64,000 nucleotides of DNA from Ruegeria arenilitoris (lineage in GTDB: Bacteria; Pseudomonadota; Alphaproteobacteria; Rhodobacterales; Rhodobacteraceae), in the NCBI RefSeq assembly GCF_013035425.1, contig NZ_WQHX01000003.1, positions 199,001 to 263,000 on the forward strand, in the 5' to 3' direction. Shown in pieces: positions 8,703-53,383 of this stretch. The notes below the pieces were generated by a model that was not told the DNA's origin, did no database searches, and saw nothing but the letters and a program-made list of their open reading frames with translations. Positions within the stretch are counted from its first letter, which is position 1; every line of letters starts with the position of its first letter. The position numbers and the translations under genes are program-made.

Positions 8703-10088
8703 ATGTTTCGCGCGACACTTATTGTTTTGTCATTGGCATGCGCCACTATGGCCACGGCAGAAACCCGAGTACCGAAGACGCAGTCCGAAATTTCCTTGGG
8801 TTTCGCGCCTGTCGTCAAGCAAGCAGCACCAGCCGTTGTCAATATCTACGCAAAAATCGTGAGGAAGGGTGGTGCAAACCCTTTCTTTTCAGACCCGTTC
8901 TTTCAAGAGTTTTTTGGCCGTGATTTTGGCGCCCCAAGGCCTCGTGTTCAAAATTCGCTGGGTTCTGGAGTAATTTTGACCGAAGACGGATTTGTCGTTT
9001 CGAACTATCATGTCGTCGGATCTGCCACGGAAATCCGCGTGGTCACTACGGACAGGCGCGAGTTTTCGGCTAAAGTGGTGCTGGGAGACGAAGAAAGCGA
9101 CATCGCCATCTTGAGATTGGAGCAAGCTGATAGCCTTCCTTACCTAATAATGCGCGACTCGGATCATGTGGAAGTGGGCGAGTTGGCGTTGGCAATTGGC
9201 AATCCATTCGGGGTGGGGCAGACGGTTTCCTCAGGCATTATCTCAGGTTTGGCACGGACAGGAACCGCAACCGGTAACGCGCGCGGGTATTTCATTCAGA
9301 CCGACGCTGCAATTAACCCCGGCAACTCCGGTGGTGCTTTGATCGATGTGAATGGGAAACTGATCGGAATTAATACCTCGATCCTAACGCGGTCCGGTGG
9401 TTCGAATGGTATTGGTTTTGCCATACCTGCCAATCTGGTTGCTGAATTTCTGAAACAGGCACGTGCTGGCAATTCGAACTTTGTCAGCCCGTGGGCTGGT
9501 ATGGCCGGGCAGCACATGAGCGCAGATATCGCCGAGTCGCTGGGCATTACTATCCCACAAGGCGTGGTCATCTCCGATTTACACATTCTCAGCCCACTGG
9601 CTGACGCCGGGTTGCGTGTAGGTGATGTGGTGACCCATGTCGATGGGGATGAGGTCAACTCCCCCGCTGAAATGAAATTCCGCATGTCTGTATCGGGTGT
9701 TGGTGGAACATCCATCTTAACGCGACTAAGGGACGGCGTGAGCGGAGAAGTTGAAGTAGACCTGATTGAGGCTCCGGACAAGCCAGCGGCAGAAGAAACG
9801 TCTCTTGACGATAAAACTGTATTGCCCGGTTTAAAAGTTGCCCGAGTAAATCCCATTATGATTACAAGCCTTGGATTGGCTCTTTCGCAGACAGGCGTGG
9901 TCGTCGTAGATCCCGGCCCTTACGGTGGTCGTGCTGGCTTGCGGGTCGGCGACGTTCTGAATGCTATAAATGGCGCAGAAATGGAGCGCCCGGGCGACGT
10001 TGTTAGCGCTTTGACCGATCCTGGGCGCAGATTGAACATGAGTATTCAACGTGGCGGGCGTTCTTTATCCCTTCGGTTTCGGTTGTGA
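8703..10088 (+). CDS. DegP/HtrA-family periplasmic serine endoprotease
   Basis: This 461-residue protein has a signal peptide ending near ATMATAE. A trypsin-like domain follows, with the catalytic triad visible as His in VSNYHVVG, Asp in EESDIAILRL and Ser in NPGNSGGAL. Two PDZ domains come after it (GVVISDLHILSPLADAGLR and the C-terminal GVVVVDPGPYGGRAGLRVGD). DegP-type enzymes degrade or refold misfolded envelope proteins. The length is near the usual 450-500 residues. rarA begins 3 bp downstream, suggesting co-transcription. It could equally be the DegQ/MucD type; sequence alone does not separate these. Confidence 0.93.
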   Translation: MFRATLIVLSLACATMATAETRVPKTQSEISLGFAPVVKQAAPAVVNIYAKIVRKGGANPFFSDPFFQEFFGRDFGAPRPRVQNSLGSGVILTEDGFVVSNYHVVGSATEIRVVTTDRREFSAKVVLGDEESDIAILRLEQADSLPYLIMRDSDHVEVGELALAIGNPFGVGQTVSSGIISGLARTGTATGNARGYFIQTDAAINPGNSGGALIDVNGKLIGINTSILTRSGGSNGIGFAIPANLVAEFLKQARAGNSNFVSPWAGMAGQHMSADIAESLGITIPQGVVISDLHILSPLADAGLRVGDVVTHVDGDEVNSPAEMKFRMSVSGVGGTSILTRLRDGVSGEVEVDLIEAPDKPAAEETSLDDKTVLPGLKVARVNPIMITSLGLALSQTGVVVVDPGPYGGRAGLRVGDVLNAINGAEMERPGDVVSALTDPGRRLNMSIQRGGRSLSLRFRL

Positions 10089-13231: not shown

Positions 13232-13939
13232 ATGAGCGATTGGAAACCGAAACGTTTCTGGACCGATAGTGTCGTTGTCCAGACAGAAGACGGGTTCACC
13301 GTTGAGCTTGATGGTCGGCGTGTCAGAACCCCGGCAAAGGAAGGGCTAATACTGCCCACGAGTGCTATGGCGCAAGCCGTTGCCGAAGAATGGGATGCGC
13401 AAGAAAAGGTCGTGGATCCAAACACGATGCCTTTTACCCGTTCTGCCAATGCAGCAATCGATAAGGTGCGTATTCAACATGCCGAAGTAGCGGACATGCT
13501 TGCCGATTATGGCGATTCGGACTTGCTCTGTTATCGCGCCACGCATCCAGAGGCGCTGCAAATGCGCCAAGCTGAACAATGGGACCCAGCGTTGGACTGG
13601 GCGGCCGATACCTTGGGTGCTCGCCTGTATCCGGTAGTTGGCGTATTGCATCAGCCGCAACCTACTGAAGCTGTTGAAACCTTACGGAAGAAAGTCCATG
13701 CGCTGGATGCCTTCAAACTGGCGGCTTTTCACGATCTTGTCAGTCTATCGGGGTCATTGATCCTGGGGTTTGCGGCGGCACACGGCTGGCGCGAGGCATC
13801 GGAAATCTGGACAATTTCCCGGTTGGACGAGCTTTGGCAGATAGAACAATGGGGTCATGATGATGAGGCAGACGCGGTATCGGAAACAAAAAGGGCCGCC
13901 TTTTTGCACGCCAAACGCTTCTTTGATCTATCTTTTTGA
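13232..13939 (+). CDS. ATP12-family F1-ATPase assembly chaperone
   Basis: This 235-residue protein begins MSDWKPKRFWTDSVVVQTED and carries GFTVELDGRRVRTPAKEGLILPT and EWDAQEKVVDPNTMPFTRSAN split over adjacent blocks, both typical of ATP12 proteins. ATP12 binds the F1 alpha subunit during assembly; it is characteristic of mitochondria and alphaproteobacteria, which supports the taxonomic reading. The start at 13232 gives the family N-terminus; an ATG at 13217 overlaps the end of the HAD gene and is less likely. Confidence 0.9.
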   Translation: MSDWKPKRFWTDSVVVQTEDGFTVELDGRRVRTPAKEGLILPTSAMAQAVAEEWDAQEKVVDPNTMPFTRSANAAIDKVRIQHAEVADMLADYGDSDLLCYRATHPEALQMRQAEQWDPALDWAADTLGARLYPVVGVLHQPQPTEAVETLRKKVHALDAFKLAAFHDLVSLSGSLILGFAAAHGWREASEIWTISRLDELWQIEQWGHDDEADAVSETKRAAFLHAKRFFDLSF

Positions 13940-31432: not shown

Positions 31433-31509
31433 GGACCGATAGCTCAGCTGGATAGAGTACTTGACTACGAATCAAGGGGTCGGGGGTTCGAATCCTCCTC
31501 GGTCCGCCA
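31433..31509 (+). tRNA. tRNA-Arg (anticodon ACG)
   Basis: A 77-nt cloverleaf can be drawn. The acceptor arms are GGACCGA and TCGGTCC, the D arm begins TAGCTCAGCTGG, the anticodon stem CTTGA/TCAAG encloses the loop CTACGAA (anticodon ACG), and the T arm GGGGGTTCGAATCCTCC contains TTCGAAT. The discriminator is G and CCA is encoded. It decodes CGN arginine codons after inosine modification. Its 3' end is the left boundary of the island. Confidence 0.96.
31494..31509 (+). repeat. Left attachment repeat (tRNA-Arg 3' end)
   Basis: The last 16 bases of the tRNA gene, CCTCCTCGGTCCGCCA, occur again in the same orientation at 57695-57710. Integration into the 3' end of a tRNA gene leaves exactly this kind of direct repeat, so this is the likely attL. 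Confidence 0.8.
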
Positions 31510-39188: not shown

Positions 39189-39962
39189 ATCTCCCCTCCA
39201 GGTACTATTCTTCTTTTTTATCACGATATTCTGTCACAGAGTTTGGAACGCAGACTTGACGTGTGTCAAACCGCCGTAGCTGCTGTCCCACCGGAAAAGT
39301 AGACCACTGCTTAAGTCTGTTTTGTCCGCATGTGAGACATTGGACGTAGGTGCAGCGAATGGCAGGTTTGGATTTCAGCCTGTTTCACGCCTTTGAATGT
39401 CAGGTTTCGGGAAAACGTGCTGCGTTGCCGCGTTAGGGTCCGAAAACAGGACGTCGTGTTGAAGCGGATTTCGCTGCAACGGCGACCGGCGGAAAAGTCC
39501 GCATAGCAGTCGTTCATTCCAGGCGATACGAAAGTCCGCTTTCTTTCTTCTTCAAGAATGTGAAGTCGGTGAACTTGAGTTCACTAATTGCAAATCAGTG
39601 GTGTCCGCGTGGATTGTTTCGCGCATGCGGTAGCAGTTCGTAGCTTTCCAGTTTCGCCATATCCAAAAAGTACTGTGGTTTCCGTCGAGGGGCGGCCCGA
39701 ACTCACCTCCGTTTTGTCCGCCGGAATTTGTTAGACGGACGCCCACTTAATCCCAAGGTGCCAGACGTAGTGGTTGCATCACATCGCCGCTAAAACCAGT
39801 ACCGCAAAACGAACAATCAACCGCCCAAAAATTACTTCAATTCATTGTTCATTTGTCGAACAAAACGCAGTGAAAACTGGAGAGCGGAATGGTTAAAAAC
39901 GACATTTTTATCAGCGTGTTGGGAAGTATTTCTGGCTCGAAATATCCCGCGATGGGTGAGCT
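39189..39962. other. 774-bp stretch without a gene
   Basis: No convincing gene is seen here. It contains one GTGAACT-type palindrome (39569-39584), a short repeat with reverse-complement GCGGACTT (39488-39545) shared with other parts of the island, and an inverted repeat TTGTTC-N7-GAACAA (39845-39863) about 100 bp before the 777-residue protein gene, which could be an operator. Confidence 0.5.
39569..39584. repeat. Palindrome copy 1, GTGAACTTGAGTTCAC
   Basis: Seven-base arms GTGAACT/AGTTCAC surround two central bases. It lies 379 bp upstream of the large nuclease-like gene. It shares the arms with copies at 42412, 42467 and 57537 and, with one change, 42339. Confidence 0.75.
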
Positions 39963-42296
39963 ATGAAAGCTGAGAGCAGCGTCGACTTTGATCTTCCGCC
40001 CGACGCAATTCTAGCGGGCATAGGACTTCTGGATCGTCAGTCTCTCTGTAGTCTAATTTCAATCCTGGAAAGCGTTGATCTACTCAGCCTGATAAGGCAA
40101 ACCACAGATAGCGTTGCGAAAAGCCTGCAACTGTCCGATGCGGACGATGCCCAAAGAGTTCGTGCAGCTACGGATGCATTGTATTGCTCATCGGTTTCAA
40201 CGCCGACTTTGAGACATCGACTTTGGTACAGAATTTCTCAAGGTTTGTCCGTGTCATCCGAGACACCATATACCACAAAGTCGGCTCACAGGTCCTCTGC
40301 TGCAATAGCGGTACGTACTTCGGAGCGGCTTTCACCAGAACTTCAACGTCGACGTCAAAATGCTGCGCTAAATCTAGAGGCTGCTGGAATTGTCGAAAAG
40401 GCGACTGCAGCTGCAAGTTCGATAATGGAAACCGCAAGGAATGCCGTGTCAACGAGCGATCCATTACCGTTCGCAGAGATTGCGTCGGAAGAGTTCTTCG
40501 ACTTCATCAGTGATGAAAACACTTTTGAAGAAATCACGAAGATTACAGACTTAGATACGAAGGAGGCGCTCGGACGAGCTCGAATGCAGGCGCAGGCTGC
40601 CGCGGCTGGTGGCGCAGGTTGGGCCGTTTTCGCTGGAGTTGTCGCGAACAGCGGGTTTGCGCCTTACATCCTGGCTGCCAAAGCGAGTGCGGTGATACCG
40701 CTTGTGAGTGGTCCGGGTCTTGTGTCCCTTCTAGCGGTAATAGTTAATCCCGCGACACTTTTGGTTGGTCTTGGTGGTCTTGCTTGGATTGGAGCTGGAA
40801 AGTCGACGAGCGCGGCGCGTAGTCAGGTGGCCGCAAGACTTTGCGCAATGCTGGCCATGCGGGGAAGCCAGGATACTGACTTCGGCGTTCAAAAATTCAT
40901 CGCTGACATGCGTTCTAGCGCGAATGGAAAGTCTACTGAGTTCGAACATCTCGACAAATCCGCAAAACACCGGATGCGAAAGCGGATCGCGGAGATTGAA
41001 AGTACTCTAGGCGGTCCAATGCCAGCACCGGCTGGAACGCCGCCGAAGCCGTGGAACGAAAGTATATACTCTGCCAAAGAAAGTACAGATTACGCTGATC
41101 TCGTAGATGCGGCAGCAGTTGCCACACTGACAACAGGTCAGCTCCTTTGGCACGCGGTTGCAATGGATCGGAACGTGCTTCGTGCAGCTGACTTTTCGAG
41201 GAATATCAATCTCGACAACCCACTGGCTTTCGCTGCAAGCGCGCATGAGTTCGCGATGCGGGGCGCACAGATTTCCTTAAGGGGATACACAGCCGAAAGG
41301 CTTGTTATGGATCAGCTGGTCGCAACCGGGCACGATGTTGTGATGCCAATCAACAGCAATATGCCCGGTTTTGACTTGCTGGTCGATGGTTGTGAAATTC
41401 AGGTGAAATGCGGGGAAACACTGAGTATTCTCACCGACCACTTCGCAAAATATCCGGGCATCCCTGTTATCGCGAATAGCGAGCTCGCAAAAAGAGCATG
41501 GGAACAAGGTGAGGAATGGGCAAGCCTCGTGACGACACTACCTGGTTTCGACTTGAGTGTTGTCGAAGGAAAGGTCGCGAAGGCGCTCGACCACGCTTTG
41601 GACCTTGTTGATTTAGATGTTCTGTTTTTTGCTTTCGCTGTTGGGCTGGTTCGAGGTGGAGTGGAGGTTTGGCGCGGTGCAATTCCGTTAGAGGACCTTC
41701 CTGCTTGGATGCTGATAGACGGAGTTGCACGAGGTGGTTTGGGCCTGGCTGGCAACACCGGTGGTACTGCGATTGGTTTGCTAGCGATTGGACCTGCGGG
41801 TGCCTTAATTCTTGGTCCGGCATTCGCTTGCGCTGCGCTAATGGGAACGGGAACAGCTCGAGACAGTATAGCCAGTTTGTTTATGCGGGAGTGGCACCAA
41901 GAGCGAAAAAGGTTGGCTGCGGAGCTGCATGCATCGCTTCTTTCTGCCCTGGAAAGGAAAATCCGAACACTTTCTAAACGGCAGTCACACTTGCCTTCCA
42001 GCGTGGAAGAGGAAACGAAGGAAGTAGCCATTTGGATGCAGCGAAAGGGATGGGATGACGTAGTTTCTGCAATCGAAGAAAAGGCAGAGATATCCATACC
42101 GCCTAGCGATGAGTTTGAGACGCTTGCCCTTCTTGTGGAGGCTTCTCGCTTGGCACCGGCAGATACAAAGGTCCTAATTGCACGTGGAAGATTGGAACGG
42201 CACCTGCAGTCCAGACCGAGCCTAAATGAAGCAGTGTTTAAAAGTCGTCTGCCTCAGCTTCCCTCATACCCTTTTAGCTATCCTAAGAAGGGTTAG
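39963..42296 (+). CDS. Large hydrophobic-segment protein with PD-(D/E)XK-like nuclease core
   Basis: This 777-residue protein matches no family I can name. The N-terminal 210 residues are helical and polar. Residues about 212-280 are hydrophobic and Gly/Ala-rich, enough for two or three membrane-crossing helices. Near residue 441 the segment GYTAERLVMDQLVATGHDVV begins, followed by FDLLVDGCEIQVKCGE with D471, E478, Q480 and K482; this is the order seen in Mrr-like PD-(D/E)XK nucleases, where Q may replace E. Further hydrophobic stretches lie at about 553-570 and 587-630. The last 140 residues are charged and helical. Two further nuclease-fold genes follow on the same strand. Function is inferred, perhaps defence. 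Confidence 0.6.
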   Translation: MKAESSVDFDLPPDAILAGIGLLDRQSLCSLISILESVDLLSLIRQTTDSVAKSLQLSDADDAQRVRAATDALYCSSVSTPTLRHRLWYRISQGLSVSSETPYTTKSAHRSSAAIAVRTSERLSPELQRRRQNAALNLEAAGIVEKATAAASSIMETARNAVSTSDPLPFAEIASEEFFDFISDENTFEEITKITDLDTKEALGRARMQAQAAAAGGAGWAVFAGVVANSGFAPYILAAKASAVIPLVSGPGLVSLLAVIVNPATLLVGLGGLAWIGAGKSTSAARSQVAARLCAMLAMRGSQDTDFGVQKFIADMRSSANGKSTEFEHLDKSAKHRMRKRIAEIESTLGGPMPAPAGTPPKPWNESIYSAKESTDYADLVDAAAVATLTTGQLLWHAVAMDRNVLRAADFSRNINLDNPLAFAASAHEFAMRGAQISLRGYTAERLVMDQLVATGHDVVMPINSNMPGFDLLVDGCEIQVKCGETLSILTDHFAKYPGIPVIANSELAKRAWEQGEEWASLVTTLPGFDLSVVEGKVAKALDHALDLVDLDVLFFAFAVGLVRGGVEVWRGAIPLEDLPAWMLIDGVARGGLGLAGNTGGTAIGLLAIGPAGALILGPAFACAALMGTGTARDSIASLFMREWHQERKRLAAELHASLLSALERKIRTLSKRQSHLPSSVEEETKEVAIWMQRKGWDDVVSAIEEKAEISIPPSDEFETLALLVEASRLAPADTKVLIARGRLERHLQSRPSLNEAVFKSRLPQLPSYPFSYPKKG

Positions 42297-42338
42297 TCGG
42301 GCCTCGCAATCTGAACTTTTGTTCAATCGTTAAGGTCA

Positions 42339-42354
42339 GTGAACTCGAATTCAC
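42339..42354. repeat. Palindrome copy 2, GTGAACTCGAATTCAC
   Basis: One arm base differs from the consensus. It begins 43 bp after the stop of the 777-residue protein gene. A shorter related palindrome, TGAACTTTTGTTCA, lies at 42312-42325. Both have GAAC-N4-GTTC at the core. Confidence 0.7.
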
Positions 42355-42411
42355 TTGTTTTCCACCCTGATGCTGAAGGACAGTTATTCCCGTTGTCTTT
42401 ATACAATTTGA

Positions 42412-42427
42412 GTGAACCCAAGTTCAC
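42412..42427. repeat. Palindrome copy 3, GTGAACCCAAGTTCAC
   Basis: It is 73 bp from copy 2, about seven helical turns, and retains the GTGAAC/GTTCAC arms with one inner mismatch. Confidence 0.7.
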
Positions 42428-42466
42428 TGGCAACAAATGAACTCGTGGACTGCCAGTCCTTATCCA

Positions 42467-42482
42467 GTGAACTCGAGTTCAC
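42467..42482. repeat. Palindrome copy 4, GTGAACTCGAGTTCAC (perfect)
   Basis: This copy is a perfect 16-bp palindrome. It lies 55 bp from copy 3 and about 35 bp upstream of the decayed second start of the 777-residue protein gene, in a position suited to a promoter operator. Confidence 0.75.
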
Positions 42483-42505
42483 TTGACCGACTTGAATTAG
42501 CTCGC

Positions 42506-42583
42506 AATGGTCGAGCTTTGGAGACCAAGAGTAGTGCCGACTTCGAACTACCCCCCGACGCTAACTAAGCTGGTCCCACTGAC
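42506..42583 (+). pseudogene. Decayed duplicate of the 5' end of the 777-residue protein gene
   Basis: Translated in one frame this stretch gives KSSADFELPPDAN-stop-AG, against AESSVDFDLPPDAILAG at the start of the 777-residue protein. The bases align from about 12 bp before both starts (CGCAATGG..GAGCTTTG against CGCGATGG..GAGCTATG). The ATG has become TTG and a TAA has arisen. Only about 20 codons are recognisable. A second copy of this gene, or of its start, was once present here. Confidence 0.65.
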
Positions 42584-42642
42584 GGGGCGTAGAAGCGAGA
42601 GATGAGAATGCAACGGTACAATGGACCAATGGAATAATTGCG

Positions 42643-43293
42643 ATGAAAGGCATGATAACGGCGGTTGAGATGTCTCAGTCAGAAGGCATTGACCCTAAGG
42701 ATTTTCGTAGCGCTCTGCGAGCAGCAAACTTCAAGTGGCATTCCCATAATGATCGGTGGGTCGTTCCTATCGGCAGCTCACAACATGAAGACATGCTACG
42801 CGTCTTGTCGGAGTTGACCAAGAACACATCGCAGCACGCAAGCACTGTCAGTGCTGGTTCGGTTCGTCCAAGTGCCAGGCAGGCATCAAACAGCGATGAG
42901 GCGTGGATCATAGACCTATGTGACAAGGCACTTGGAAAAAAGGCAATGCGGCAACACCGCTTCCCGTTTCTACTCGGTGATCCGGGGTCGTCGGGACGGA
43001 GAGTGCCACTTCCCGTAGATGCGTACTACCCAGACTTGGCGTTGGTGATTGAGTATCACGAAAGGCAGCATACCTCCTCTGTTACCGTCTTCGACAAACG
43101 GAAAACGGTATCCGGCGTAGGAAGAAGAGAACAGCGAAGGCTTTATGATAAGCGCCGCCAAGAGGTGCTGCCAGAGAACGGGTATGAACTGATCGTGTTC
43201 GACTACTCTGAGTTCAAGCACGATAGAAGTGGCCGCCTAATCAGGGACCCCGATGCTGAGACAATTGTCGCGAACCGTCTCAGCGGTTTTTGA
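42643..43293 (+). CDS. Vsr/DUF559-like endonuclease-fold protein
   Basis: This 216-residue protein has a small N-terminal domain (DFRSALRAANFKWHSHNDRW), a serine-rich linker, and a C-terminal domain beginning AWIIDLCDKALGKKAMRQHR. The core VDAYYPDLALVIEYHERQHT has D126, D131, E137 and H143 spaced as in very-short-patch-repair and DUF559 nucleases. It is followed by REQRRLYDKRRQEVLPENGY and LIVFDYSEF. It therefore looks like a DNA endonuclease of the restriction-endonuclease-like fold. It lies between the large nuclease-like gene and a CoiA-like gene. An in-frame ATG 9 bp later is also possible as start. Confidence 0.7.
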   Translation: MKGMITAVEMSQSEGIDPKDFRSALRAANFKWHSHNDRWVVPIGSSQHEDMLRVLSELTKNTSQHASTVSAGSVRPSARQASNSDEAWIIDLCDKALGKKAMRQHRFPFLLGDPGSSGRRVPLPVDAYYPDLALVIEYHERQHTSSVTVFDKRKTVSGVGRREQRRLYDKRRQEVLPENGYELIVFDYSEFKHDRSGRLIRDPDAETIVANRLSGF

Positions 43294-43579
43294 ATTCGCC
43301 TTAGCCACTGATTGCTCCATACACTTTGGGACTTTCTCCAATGAACTCAAGGTCATCGGACAGCCGCGATTGCCTAACTTAGAACGATCGACTAGCATCA
43401 GGTTATAAGGCGGCCCCTAAGAGCCCTTCAAATAACCGGCGAGCGACGAAGTCTTAAACGCCGAAGAGAAGCAAGAACAGCGTTGGCGATCGCCTTCAAG
43501 CCGTCCTTTCAACTTTGCTCAAACCTCGGCGCTGGCGTGGTGCCGTGCGCCTGTAGCTTTCTGTTAAAGAGGATAGAAC

Positions 43580-44338
43580 ATGCAATTTGCAATCGTTGAC
43601 GGACGACGCAGCCAACCGGAACCCGGTCTAACTGGCTTATGCCCCGGCTGCAAATCGGACATGGTCGCGAGGTGCGGCCCGGTCAGGATTTGGCATTGGG
43701 CGCACAAGGGTATGCGTCACTGCGATCACTGGTGGGAGAATGAGACAGAATGGCATCGTCGATGGAAAAACAACTTCCCGAGCGATTGGCAGGAGGTCAT
43801 TCATTTCAGTCCATCGAAAGAACGCCATATCTCGGATGTGAAGACCCGGTACGGTTTGGTAATTGAATTCCAACATTCGCGGCTTGATGCTCAAGAACGC
43901 GTGTCGCGCGAGGATTTCTACAAAAAGATGATTTGGGTGGTGGATGGAACCAGGCGAAAGCGCGATCACAAACGCTTCCGATCGGGGCGCGGGGATTGGC
44001 GCCGAATACGACCAAACACTCCGCTATTTGCTTCTCCTTTTCCTGAGAACTCCCTCCCGCAGGATTGGATAGACAGCAAAGTACCTGTGCTGTTCGACTT
44101 CGAAAGTTCGAACGAAAACCCTCCTGAAGTGGCTCAGCGCCTGTGGTGCCTCTTGCCGGGCAGAGCGTCCGGCCAAGCCGTGCTTTGGCGTATGGAACGA
44201 GCAGCCTTCGTCAAAGCAGCGTCAACAGGCAAACTAGACCTCAACTGGGAAGCGGGCCTGAAGCAGTCTATAGAAGCTACATTGCGCCGGCAGAATGCCC
44301 GCATCAGTATGGCACTTTCGAGGCGATCGCGCTTCTAG
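43580..44338 (+). CDS. CoiA-like competence/nuclease-family protein
   Basis: This 252-residue protein has an N-terminal zinc-finger-like CPGCKSDMVARCG, then IWHWAHKGMRHCDHWWENET and the nuclease-like core HISDVKTRYGLVIEFQHSRL. Within this, D86, E96, Q98 and H99 fit the CoiA branch of the PD-(D/E)XK fold. CoiA takes part in recombination during transformation in Gram-positive bacteria; in alphaproteobacteria such proteins are mostly uncharacterised. The ribosome-binding site AAAGAGGAT precedes it. It is the third nuclease-like gene in a row; the 286-bp gap before it shows only one half-site-like ATGAACTC. Confidence 0.75.
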   Translation: MQFAIVDGRRSQPEPGLTGLCPGCKSDMVARCGPVRIWHWAHKGMRHCDHWWENETEWHRRWKNNFPSDWQEVIHFSPSKERHISDVKTRYGLVIEFQHSRLDAQERVSREDFYKKMIWVVDGTRRKRDHKRFRSGRGDWRRIRPNTPLFASPFPENSLPQDWIDSKVPVLFDFESSNENPPEVAQRLWCLLPGRASGQAVLWRMERAAFVKAASTGKLDLNWEAGLKQSIEATLRRQNARISMALSRRSRF

Positions 44339-44493: not shown

Positions 44494-45066
44494 TCATGCG
44501 ACCTCTGTCGTCTCCAGTTCGCGAAGTATGCGATACACCGAGGCCCGACTTATGCCCAGCTTCCTAGCGATTTCAGTTGCTCCTGTTCGCGCTTCATGTA
44601 GATCAACAACTTCCTTTGACTTGGCCTTGGCAGTCGGCTTTCGACCTTTGTACTTCCCTGCAGCTTTTGCTTTAGCAATCCCTTCCCGCTGGCGCTCAAG
44701 CATTATTTCACGCTCAAATTCGGCGATGCCGCCGAGAATTGTAAGCATCAGCTTGCCCGTCGGCGTGCCTGTATCGATGCCCATCCCCAAGATGCGGAGC
44801 GTCGCGCCCTTGGCCGCAAGCGTATCCAAAATTTCAAGAAGGTGCGGGACCGAACGCGCCAACCGATCCAGTCTTGTGACGATCAGCGTGTCACCCTCGC
44901 GTATGAACTCCAAGGCGTCCGCCAAACGCTGTCTGGCTTTTACGTCAATAGAAGATACTTGTTCTTCGAAGACCTTATCACATCCCGCTTCTGTCAACTC
45001 TAGCATTTGAGCTTCTAAACCGGCTTTCTGGTCTACCGTTGATGTTCTTGCGTATCCGATGAGCAT
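44494..45066 (-). CDS. Small serine recombinase (resolvase/invertase family)
   Basis: This 190-residue protein begins MLIGYARTSTVDQKAGLEAQ, with the catalytic serine in ARTSTVDQ, then VTRLDRLARSVPHLLEIL, GKLMLTILGGIAEFEREIM, the E-helix linker and a C-terminal helix-turn-helix with GATEIARKLGISRASVYRIL. It is of the Tn3-resolvase/DNA-invertase type. It converges on the CoiA-like gene. A candidate recombination or operator site lies just upstream. Confidence 0.93.
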   Translation of the reverse strand: MLIGYARTSTVDQKAGLEAQMLELTEAGCDKVFEEQVSSIDVKARQRLADALEFIREGDTLIVTRLDRLARSVPHLLEILDTLAAKGATLRILGMGIDTGTPTGKLMLTILGGIAEFEREIMLERQREGIAKAKAAGKYKGRKPTAKAKSKEVVDLHEARTGATEIARKLGISRASVYRILRELETTEVA

Positions 45067-45146: not shown

Positions 45147-45281
45147 CAGATATCGTGCGGTGGGTGTTTCACTAGGCCAAGCCCTATTGGAAACAACATT
45201 CTTAAAAGCGAAGCGGACGTTCATACAAAATGCAGCGAATAACTGCTTCGAGCCCAAAGTTGCCAGTGGTGCTCAGGGCAC

Positions 45282-45325
45282 GAAGGTCTGCGATGCGCAG
45301 AAAGCGGACTTTGCAAATTTACGAA
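45282..45325. repeat. Dispersed short repeat with GCGGACTTTGCAAA
   Basis: GCGATGCGCAGAAAGCGGAC and the following TTTGCAAA closely match a segment at about 53010-53045 (GCAATGCGCAGACAGCGGAC, then TTTGCAAA). Related but shorter matches in reverse complement lie at 39488-39545 and 57320-57362. All are in non-coding DNA of the island. Confidence 0.55.
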
Positions 45326-45541
45326 AACTGCCCAAAAGAAACTTCCTTACACCCACACCATCTGAACTTTAGCGGTTCGCTGAGTGGTTGAGAAAATCGG
45401 CCATTTCGCTCTGTGTCAGTGACCTTTTGACCGTCTGGCTGCTGAGCCCTCTGACAAGGAGTGAGGCGAAGAAAATTTATTTGACATGCAGACATTATGT
45501 TTCATGCTTTGATTAGTCTTTTCTTCGGGTTGGGAGTGCGA

Positions 45542-47290
45542 ATGATGAAGTGGATGATGATAGCAGTCGGTCTATTGACCTCTTTCGCCACAAACTCTGT
45601 AGCCCAAACCGCTGATACCGTCTTATTGAATGGCAACATCTACACTATGGATGCATCACGGCCTGAGGCTGAAGCAGTTGCTATTATGGGAACGCAAATC
45701 TTCTACGTTGGTTCCGATGATGGAGTCCAATCCCTGATTGGAGAAGAAACAAAAGTCATCGACCTTCAGGGACAAACGGTGCTGCCGGGCTTTGTCAGCG
45801 GCCACGAACACCTTGTCGCATCAGGGTGGACGCAATTGGGTGTCCAATTGGGCTCTGGTCAATCCAAAGAGGATTATCTCACTTTAATTAAAGAGTACGC
45901 GGACGCCAATCCCGAAGAGGAGTTTATCCGTGGCATTGGATGGAATGCGACTCTGATGGGCGGTGAGTTCACGGCTGCCGATTTGGATGCGATTGTACCT
46001 GACAGACCCGTGTTCCTGCAAGATTACACCATTCATGACGCATGGCTGAACACCAAAGCTATGGAAATGGGAGGCGTGAACAAAGACACTCCCGACCCAG
46101 TTCCGGGTTTGATCTATTTTGTAAGAGATGACGAGGGTAACCCAACAGGCTACGCGAAAGAATTTGCGTGGATGGGGGCCTATGTGGAATCTGGTGCATG
46201 GCAGCCAGATACGATGATCCCAGAGAGCCAAACAGAGCTTTATGATTTGGCCGCGAGATTTGGCTACACCACCTACATCAACCAAGGATTGGTTACACCA
46301 AATATCAAGTCTCAGGCGAAACACTACGATGACACCCGAGTGGCGCTGGACATCCTGCAAGCACAAGCTGACGAAGGCACACTCAAGCTTCGTACCTTGA
46401 TGATGACCCTTGTCAAAGGCGACGATTTCGATGCGGACGAGGCGGTTGCCAATACTTTGGAGCTGAAGTCTTCATTCGACAACGATGACGTTCGCGTGCT
46501 TGGAATTAAGATACACCCGGAAGGGGTTCACACAAGCCATGCATCGGTCATGCTTGAGCCGTGGCTGGACCTGCCTGAAAAAACGGCAGTGCGAGGTGTA
46601 TCGGCTGCCCTAACAGATGAAATTGTCCTCAAAGCAAACGCAGCCGGACTTGACGTCTCTGTGCATGTTGATGGCTCAAAAACCGTTCGCGAAACTGTTG
46701 ACTCATATGTCAACGCTCAGAAAGCTGGATACACCGAAGCCCGCAATTCGCTTCAACACTTAGCTTTTGCGCATCCAGATGATATTGAACGCATCATACA
46801 GCACAATATCCTGTCCAATATCACCCCGATTTGGGGCACGACTTGGGGCGGTGGGCTTGACGGTGCCATGGAAATTATGGGCCTCGAAAGGACCGTTTCC
46901 GAATTTCAACGCATCCGTACTTTGATGGACGCAGGCGCACCCGTCAGTATAGGCGCAGACGTTCCCAGCACCGATCCTAGCCTCATGGGTGTACTAACCT
47001 TATGCGAAGCAGCCGTTACACGGCGCGATCCGTCTAATCCGGACGATGATCGTATCTTCCCACCAGTATATCAGGCTCTCACGCTCGACCAATGTATATA
47101 CGCCGCAACGCTTGGTGGTGCGTATGAAGCGAGGATGGAGGACAAGATCGGAAGCTTGGAGTTTGGCAAGTATGCCGACCTGGTTATTCTAGAAGATGAC
47201 CTTTTCTCGGTGCTTCCTTCTGATATCGCGGATGTGAAGATAGTAGCCACGATGAAGGGCGGAGTATTCACACATGAAGATGGTCTTTGA
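45542..47290 (+). CDS. Exported YtcJ-like amidohydrolase
   Basis: This 582-residue protein has a signal peptide (MMKWMMIAVGLLTSFATNSV, cleavage near AQT), then VLLNGNIYTMDASRPEAEAV and VLPGFVSGHEHLVASG, the metal-binding HxH. Further marks are IKIHPEGVH, the metal-like histidines in LQHLAFAHPDD, and SIGADVPSTDP, and it ends with GKYADLVILEDDL. This is the amidohydrolase_3 architecture. The substrate is unknown; an exported form is unusual. The ATG at 45542 follows GGGAGTGCGA; an ATG 45 bp upstream adds an extra hydrophobic stretch. Confidence 0.83.
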   Translation: MMKWMMIAVGLLTSFATNSVAQTADTVLLNGNIYTMDASRPEAEAVAIMGTQIFYVGSDDGVQSLIGEETKVIDLQGQTVLPGFVSGHEHLVASGWTQLGVQLGSGQSKEDYLTLIKEYADANPEEEFIRGIGWNATLMGGEFTAADLDAIVPDRPVFLQDYTIHDAWLNTKAMEMGGVNKDTPDPVPGLIYFVRDDEGNPTGYAKEFAWMGAYVESGAWQPDTMIPESQTELYDLAARFGYTTYINQGLVTPNIKSQAKHYDDTRVALDILQAQADEGTLKLRTLMMTLVKGDDFDADEAVANTLELKSSFDNDDVRVLGIKIHPEGVHTSHASVMLEPWLDLPEKTAVRGVSAALTDEIVLKANAAGLDVSVHVDGSKTVRETVDSYVNAQKAGYTEARNSLQHLAFAHPDDIERIIQHNILSNITPIWGTTWGGGLDGAMEIMGLERTVSEFQRIRTLMDAGAPVSIGADVPSTDPSLMGVLTLCEAAVTRRDPSNPDDDRIFPPVYQALTLDQCIYAATLGGAYEARMEDKIGSLEFGKYADLVILEDDLFSVLPSDIADVKIVATMKGGVFTHEDGL

Positions 47291-52621: not shown

Positions 52622-53383
52622 CCGATAGGCACCTCAAATCAAAGGTAGACAATTTCTGCCTCTAGCGCGAGACCAAGGTGGCAAAATCCCATTTTTTAAG
52701 AATAATTGCTCCAATCGGCCATCATTCCTCAAAGTAGCGGTGTTCCGCCGCCGGGTAAGGGAGCACTGAACCATGGGTCCGACTTATGATTCCTTGTTCA
52801 TCCAATACCGCCGATACTATCAGCAGTTTTGCTCGAATACCGGATACAGGTATTGAGCGGATGAAAGCGAACGGCAGTTTGTCCGCATCTCGGGATTTGC
52901 AAAGTTTAGTTTGGAATGTCCGGTTTGGGCTGCGACCAGCCAACCATGCTTGCCGCAAAGAATGGCCGCATCGAGCCCACTTTGACCGATGCTGCTCGAT
53001 GCCCCAATGACAGCAATGCGCAGACAGCGGACTTTGCAAAGTCTTGGGTACAGATCGTAATAGAAGTCTCTTTTCTCAGAACTCTGGGCCTAAGCATCGC
53101 TGGTTGGGGATTAGAAGCGCGAACAACGGATTCAGTTTCAAGGTTCAAATCCATCTCAGCGGATCGCCTAGAGACTATTGATCTTCCCCGAGTTCAGAGC
53201 GGAGCGACCAGATAGAATGATGCGGCGCGAGTGACGCCAATTTATTTCCTACCAACCCGGCGCGGGCAGGGATTGGCTCAAGGCAGTTCCAGGAAGGGTC
53301 AAGATAGGCGCAGAATACAAATGGCTGAACAGAGTTCTGGACTGTGACATAGATGATCTTCGCCGAGGTTGGGTGTGGGTGGA
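52622..53383. other. 762-bp stretch without a gene; one dispersed repeat
   Basis: No supported gene is present. At about 53010-53045 the segment GCAATGCGCAGACAGCGGAC followed by TTTGCAAA matches the repeat at 45282. The rest looks like decayed DNA with short broken frames. Confidence 0.5.

Follow-up and report, generated by a model that had tools for sequence, protein, structure and literature searches.

A predicted membrane-anchored PD-(D/E)XK nuclease beside two other nuclease-like genes, probable separate passengers of mobile DNA in Ruegeria arenilitoris

Bacteria need to cut foreign DNA and to spare their own. The cutting of phage DNA during its injection by a membrane-bound nuclease is an established principle, represented by SNIPE, which combines an N-terminal single-pass transmembrane segment, a DUF4041 domain and a GIY-YIG nuclease (PMC13190303). 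A CoiA-domain protein is also listed among the defence systems validated in Escherichia coli (PMC9519451). The locus described here consists of three consecutive nuclease-like genes, called g1, g2 and g3, in a 64-kb stretch of the Ruegeria arenilitoris genome (contig NZ_WQHX01000003.1, positions 199,001 to 263,000; hereafter the window), which a first-pass annotation had interpreted as a candidate joint system for defence or DNA processing. Comparison with other genomes suggests that the three genes are separate passengers of mobile DNA and that the predicted product of g1 is a PD-(D/E)XK nuclease anchored in the inner membrane, where it would cut the DNA of phages or plasmids, a reading to which we assign a probability of roughly 0.55.

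Co-occurrence of the three families was assessed in 82 loci holding g1 relatives (designated by L numbers), which comprised the best 80 of 90 genome-collection matches and two viral contigs, each with 10-kb flanks where the contigs allowed. Profile searches of these loci found a g2 relative in 0/82 and a g3 relative in 1/82, locus L058 of Mycoplana. L047 and L101 are identical and L021 and L022 near-copies; with several short contigs in the set, the absence counts hold for the visible sequence. Apart from the window, L058 alone was seen to hold members of two of the families. In this locus (Mycoplana azooxidifex, L058:9296-14059), a g1 relative, an open reading frame (ORF) judged metallophosphoesterase-like by eye and a g3 relative lie in a row in the same orientation. 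Among 385 genomes of the class, the g1, g2 and g3 profiles matched 4, 3 and 9 genomes, respectively, several of these matches being weak or partial, and two of the three families together were found in 0/384 of the other class genomes, the overlap being confined to the window's own genome. Among the relatives searched, g1 was present in 5 of 101, all within the genus, g2 in 1 of 54 genus genomes, i.e., the window's own, and g3 in 4 of 61, of which one match was marginal and another contained two internal stops; the counts for g1 and g3 include the window's genome. On the missing co-location in the other genomes searched, a conserved three-gene defence system is rejected and, since relatives of the three genes are almost never together elsewhere, the genes are likely separate passengers of mobile DNA and not one system.

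Several elements of the first-pass annotation were confirmed. The three ORFs are present, all on one strand (Table 1), the residues that it named for each product are all found in the translations and are conserved above chance among aligned homologues, and the serine recombinase that it placed next to the nuclease genes is there (Resolvase PF00239, E 1.1e-41). Its interpretation holds for the nuclease-like motifs in the three genes and fails for their combination into one system. The description of the region as a tRNA-bounded island was also not borne out, as ARAGORN identified a single tRNA gene in the window, a tRNA-Arg at 31433-31509, which is ~8.5 kb away on the upstream side of g1, beyond other genes. 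The intergenic gaps of 346 bp between g1 and g2 and 286 bp between g2 and g3 do not look like the spacing of one tight operon, and simple scans for promoter and terminator signals gave no excess over shuffles.

The closest copies of g1, 83-84% identical, were found in two Ruegeria atlantica loci (L011 and L012), where the order of genes is an Arm-DNA-bind_3 integrase, an AlpA-like gene, a 457-aa (amino acid) protein, g1, DUF6994, a GIY-YIG-like protein and a recombinase to which that of the window is 74-75% identical. These two loci share a 9.0-kb unit (L011:5469-14444 and L012:4725-13812) that is 96% identical, and outside it only a 54-bp repeat is common; with such differing flanks, the shared segment is a mobile unit. 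Compared with R. atlantica, the window has kept g1 and the recombinase and carries g2 and g3 between them instead of the DUF6994 and GIY-YIG-like genes. A run of three consecutive nucleases is no system here, since in the closest relatives other genes take the neighbours' place. A second element in the window's own genome, L018, lies beside a tRNA-Ser and encodes an integrase 35% identical to that of L012. L018 has both flanks of g1 (88% and 84% identity, the latter between window 42327-42427 and L018:9476-9576) but is without g1, 34 bp replacing 2.7 kb. By these comparisons, an exchange of cargo has taken place at this locus.

The R. atlantica element resembles the defence hotspots of P4-like satellites (PMC9122126) in its Arm-DNA-bind_3 integrase (the type of the L012 integrase), AlpA-like regulator and exchangeable putative defence cargo. 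The window copy differs in being without such an integrase: the integrases of L012, L018 and L020 matched nothing in the 64-kb window (tblastn, E <= 1e-3). The surroundings of the locus are themselves variable, and no empty site was defined from them: counterparts of the amidohydrolase-like gene at 45497-47290 occur in 5 other genomes of the 54 (E <= 1e-100) and are just 42-43% identical, and its own genome holds a 42% paralogue. Upstream of the recombinase, a dyad centred on 2 nt and resembling a resolvase crossover site is present in all three copies; it is near-perfect in the L011/L012 unit and perfect in L012 (TCCAATAGGGC-2 nt-GCCCTATTGGA, 13708-13731). Dispersed repeats of ~85 bp are common to the window's genome and R. 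atlantica (window 45231-45317 and 52961-53044; L011:16614-16700; L012:13776-13860), one of which adjoins the mobile unit on its right.

The most interesting part of the locus is g1, which represents a worthwhile unnamed family. No Pfam, NCBIfam or PHROGs family matched it, and its match to the PADLOC profile PDC-M72B was weak and partial (E 3.9e-4, aa 421-511, 96/193 profile positions). The PDC-M72 profiles are 168-193 positions long, in g1 the match is confined to the nuclease core, and no paper naming PDC-M72 was found in a literature search. At least 76 homologues besides g1 itself were identified in a search that scored the 7997 candidates sharing most words with it; these relatives are sparse and span Alphaproteobacteria to Bacilli. 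In the alignment of 53 of the 77 sequences (own sequence included), E445, D471, Q480 and K482 are invariant (53/53), giving the E...D...(E/Q)xK active site of PD-(D/E)XK nucleases throughout. Set beside the alpha-beta-beta-beta-alpha-beta core fold of the superfamily, the structure model places a helix at 433-454, strands at 472-474 and 477-482, a helix at 488-496 and a strand at 502-504, with block values of the predicted local distance difference test (pLDDT) of 79-93 over residues 441-520. Compared with the G072 copy, nonsynonymous divergence (dN) was 0.10 and synonymous divergence (dS) 1.63 by NG86, for a dN/dS of ~0.06 with dS near saturation, which indicates that g1 is under purifying selection.

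Two conserved hydrophobic regions flank the PD-(D/E)XK motif. On the N-terminal side, the stretch 205-290 contains a 19-residue Kyte-Doolittle window of >=1.6 in 53/53 aligned sequences; the second region, strongly hydrophobic at about 599-627 in g1, is hydrophobic in 50/53, and the three glycines of its GxxxGxxxG zipper are invariant in 53/53. Of 75 family ORFs with a length of >= 500 aa, a broader sample, 65 have a loose form of the nuclease motif, 61 have hydrophobic stretches to either side of it and 62 contain a GxxxGxxxG downstream. The protein is also found in a split form: in 4/4 Bacilli loci (L097-L100), two neighbouring genes cover most of the g1 length, with the profile match of the upstream gene falling within positions 12-371 and the downstream gene corresponding to positions 376-749, or to 402-749 in the called L098 ORF. 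The two genes overlap in L097, L099 and L100, and PDC-M72B also matches the nuclease core in the Bacilli half-proteins (best E 2.2e-10). Proteins that occur fused in some lineages and as separate parts in others usually form functional units; g1 is thus likely complete by itself and would need neither g2 nor g3. In Kurthia huakuii (L098:8447-9983), a reading frame that is TnpB-like by eye interrupts the downstream half near its start, and in Bacillus sp. M6-12 (L097:4282-7705), three tandem ORFs that are tyrosine-recombinase-like by eye lie upstream of the split pair.

A defence association of g1 was evaluated from its immediate neighbours. The nearest ORF of >= 120 aa on each side of the g1 relatives gave 150 proteins, of which 140 were scanned (67 beside closer and 73 beside distant relatives); six from L021, L101 and L065 (copies or near-copies), both from L071 and one short ORF each from L074 and L075 were dropped. 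At least 13 of the 140, in 11 loci, matched PADLOC at E <= 1e-50, these 13 coming from 29 neighbours that were scanned singly and chosen mostly for length. The matches were to TmtA-like proteins (two), PDC-S37 (two), type I R, S and M subunits (one each), SspF, IetS, MzaE, HEC-01A, PbeC and Orf5/HEC-06. A match to HmaC at E 0 outside the single scans brings the true count to at least 14. In control stretches, 0/133 ORFs (19 stretches) reached this threshold, the best E being 3.4e-48, and the one-sided Fisher p, computed with 13 matches, was 1.3e-4. Some features limit the weight of this comparison: the signal comes mostly from neighbours of distant g1 relatives (at least 11/73) and little from those of closer ones (2/67), the control genes belong to one genus and are not length-matched, and several of the neighbour matches share a locus. 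Altogether, the enrichment offers moderate support for a defence association of g1.

The mechanism favoured here for g1 is one of location. The hydrophobic hairpins, the second by way of its GxxxGxxxG zipper, would enter the inner membrane or assemble there, a placement that would keep the nuclease off the nucleoid, and the core would cleave DNA by means of E445, D471 and K482 as invading DNA comes through the membrane, thereby protecting the cell from phage or plasmid DNA. Insertion in the membrane, cutting of DNA, the trigger and the protective effect are all predictions at this stage. SNIPE (PMC13190303) unites a membrane anchor and a nuclease in one protein at the inner membrane, and g1, judged by its hydropathy, would do the same. 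In contrast to SNIPE, g1 has its hydrophobic regions inside the chain, one before and one after the PD-(D/E)XK motif, and neither DUF4041 nor GIY-YIG was found in g1, a Pfam scan at E <= 1 having returned one unrelated weak match. The best reading by analogy is that g1 may work like SNIPE and is not a member of it. As a tentative extension, g1 might stand for an unnamed anti-phage class, in which a PD-(D/E)XK nuclease enclosed by a pair of membrane hairpins, of which one is a glycine zipper, fused in proteobacteria and present as a two-gene membrane pair in Bacilli, cuts phage DNA crossing the inner membrane without a modification enzyme.

As for the other two genes, g2 combines a predicted winged helix with a nuclease domain whose fold and conserved acidic and histidine residues are those of Vsr/EDxHD nucleases. 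E86, D126, E137 and H143 are invariant in 63/63 aligned sequences, own included (63 of the 120 listed in the homologue search). No sequence match to a solved structure was found for g2, and its homing-endonuclease matches are distant. It differs from both Vsr and the EDxHD homing endonuclease I-Bth0305I by its N-terminal winged-helix-like domain. For a Vsr mismatch repair endonuclease, linkage to a methylase is expected; no Dcm-type cytosine methylase adjoins g2, whose direct neighbours are g1 and g3. In g3, D86, E96 and Q98 are invariant in 27/27 aligned sequences (the window protein and 26 of the 120 listed) and H99 is conserved in 25/27, while the cysteines C21, C24, C32 and C48 are invariant in the aligned homologues. 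The CoiA_N match exceeds its cut-off (30.8 bits against 26.3) and the CoiA_nuc match stays below its own (17.9 bits against 20.3); PADLOC gave no match for g3. With the competence protein CoiA it has in common the four-cysteine CoiA_N part and the D/ExQ core. A homologue search gave 3748 matches; in contrast to competence CoiA, relatives of g3 are carried by plasmids and predicted viral contigs (44 plasmid records and 62 loci from predicted viral contigs). Neighbours on the six plasmids opened, of the 44, included traA/C/D/G (one plasmid), a MobQ relaxase (one), zincin-like metallopeptidases (three) and ParB-domain genes (three). In L230, L233 and L235, i.e., three of these six plasmids, the CoiA-family gene lies <5 kb from the zincin-like metallopeptidase gene, a proximity that hints at a role in plasmid establishment. 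It is likely that g2 and g3 serve the mobile elements that carry them, in DNA establishment, recombination or homing.

The same observations could be taken further, in that all three genes, g1 included, would serve the element by processing or establishing its incoming DNA or by excluding competitors, with phage defence at most a side effect. The transfer and partition-type genes near g3 relatives and the homing-endonuclease matches of g2 fit this explanation, as does the position of g1, within an integrase element in R. atlantica and behind the three tandem recombinase-like ORFs in Bacillus. However, no neighbour family occurs in more than 8 g1 loci, so that g1 is not tied to the transfer or replication genes of one element, and some g1 relatives adjoin restriction-modification, Ssp, IetS and TmtA-like genes. 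We therefore regard element service by all three genes as rather unlikely, and favour defence at the membrane for g1.

The palindrome GTGAACTYRAGTTCAC and its near forms, which separate genes both in the window and in the elements of R. atlantica, were found at window positions 39569, 42339, 42412, 42467 and 57537, at L018:9396-9642, at L020:8144 and 10671, and in L011 and L012. The pattern GTGAACNNNNGTTCAC occurs in 11 places in the window's genome and in 5 and 3 in the two R. atlantica genomes, and 11 of the 51 remaining genus genomes hold 1-2 forms each with other central bases. The YRYR-centred form GTGAACTYRAGTTCAC itself has 6 copies in the window's genome and was found in 0/294 other family genomes, a sample that excluded the two of R. 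atlantica. At window 42406-42447, palindrome 42412 joins the left and right flanks of two different L018 palindromes (L018:9440-9480 and 9540-9576), which suggests past recombination there. The palindrome was considered as the site of the recombinase because palindromes separate the genes, and was dropped in favour of the 2-nt-centred dyad, a better candidate. It might conceivably be a P4 iteron or a LexA-like operator. It could also mark exchangeable cassettes, the nuclease genes forming an integron-like array moved at palindromes; their placement between successive genes and the same flanks without g1 in L018, together with the mixed flanks of palindrome 42412, agree with such an array. We consider it quite improbable, as some palindromes are inside coding sequence (L012:7247 and L020:8144), the exact motif is missing from the 294 family genomes, and the crossover-like dyad that the recombinase has upstream of its gene does not resemble the palindrome. 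A genuine young three-nuclease system with different substrates, assembled once in this lineage, would agree with the consecutive, same-strand genes, their intact and invariant active sites and the g1 and g3 relatives separated by one ORF in Mycoplana, and is made highly improbable by the co-occurrence counts (0/82 and 1/82), the gaps of 346 and 286 bp and the DUF6994 and GIY-YIG-like genes at the corresponding place in R. atlantica.

Table 1. Positions of the genes, protein regions and repeats of the nuclease locus in the window
Feature	Position	Strand	Basis or remark
Non-coding g1 flank	39321..39615	.	88% identical to L018:9148-9442
Palindrome GTGAACTTGAGTTCAC upstream of g1	39569..39584	.	
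g1, predicted membrane-anchored PD-(D/E)XK nuclease, 777 aa	39963..42296	+	ORF; homologue search; PADLOC PDC-M72B
g1 hydrophobic region 1, aa 236-277	40668..40793	+	Hydropathy; invariant G231, Y235, P263
g1 nuclease core, aa 433-514 (E445, D471, Q480-x-K482)	41259..41504	+	Invariant 53/53; structure model
g1 hydrophobic region 2, aa 597-627, glycine zipper G597-x3-G601-x3-G605	41751..41843	+	Hydropathy; alignment
Three palindromes between g1 and g2 (42339, 42412, 42467)	42339..42482	.	
g2, predicted winged helix (aa 1-67) and Vsr/EDxHD-like nuclease (aa 84-216), 216 aa	42643..43293	+	
g3, CoiA-family protein, 252 aa	43580..44338	+	CoiA_N E 2.1e-7
Small serine recombinase, resolvase/invertase type	44494..45066	-	PF00239
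Dyad upstream of recombinase, resolvase-crossover-like	45165..45194	.	Imperfect in window

A nuclease held at the membrane solves the problem of telling self from foreign DNA through its location, and SNIPE is the recent proof of that principle. If the reading of g1 proposed here is true, this family would represent an independent solution with a different nuclease fold, in a gene small enough for a one-plasmid test.

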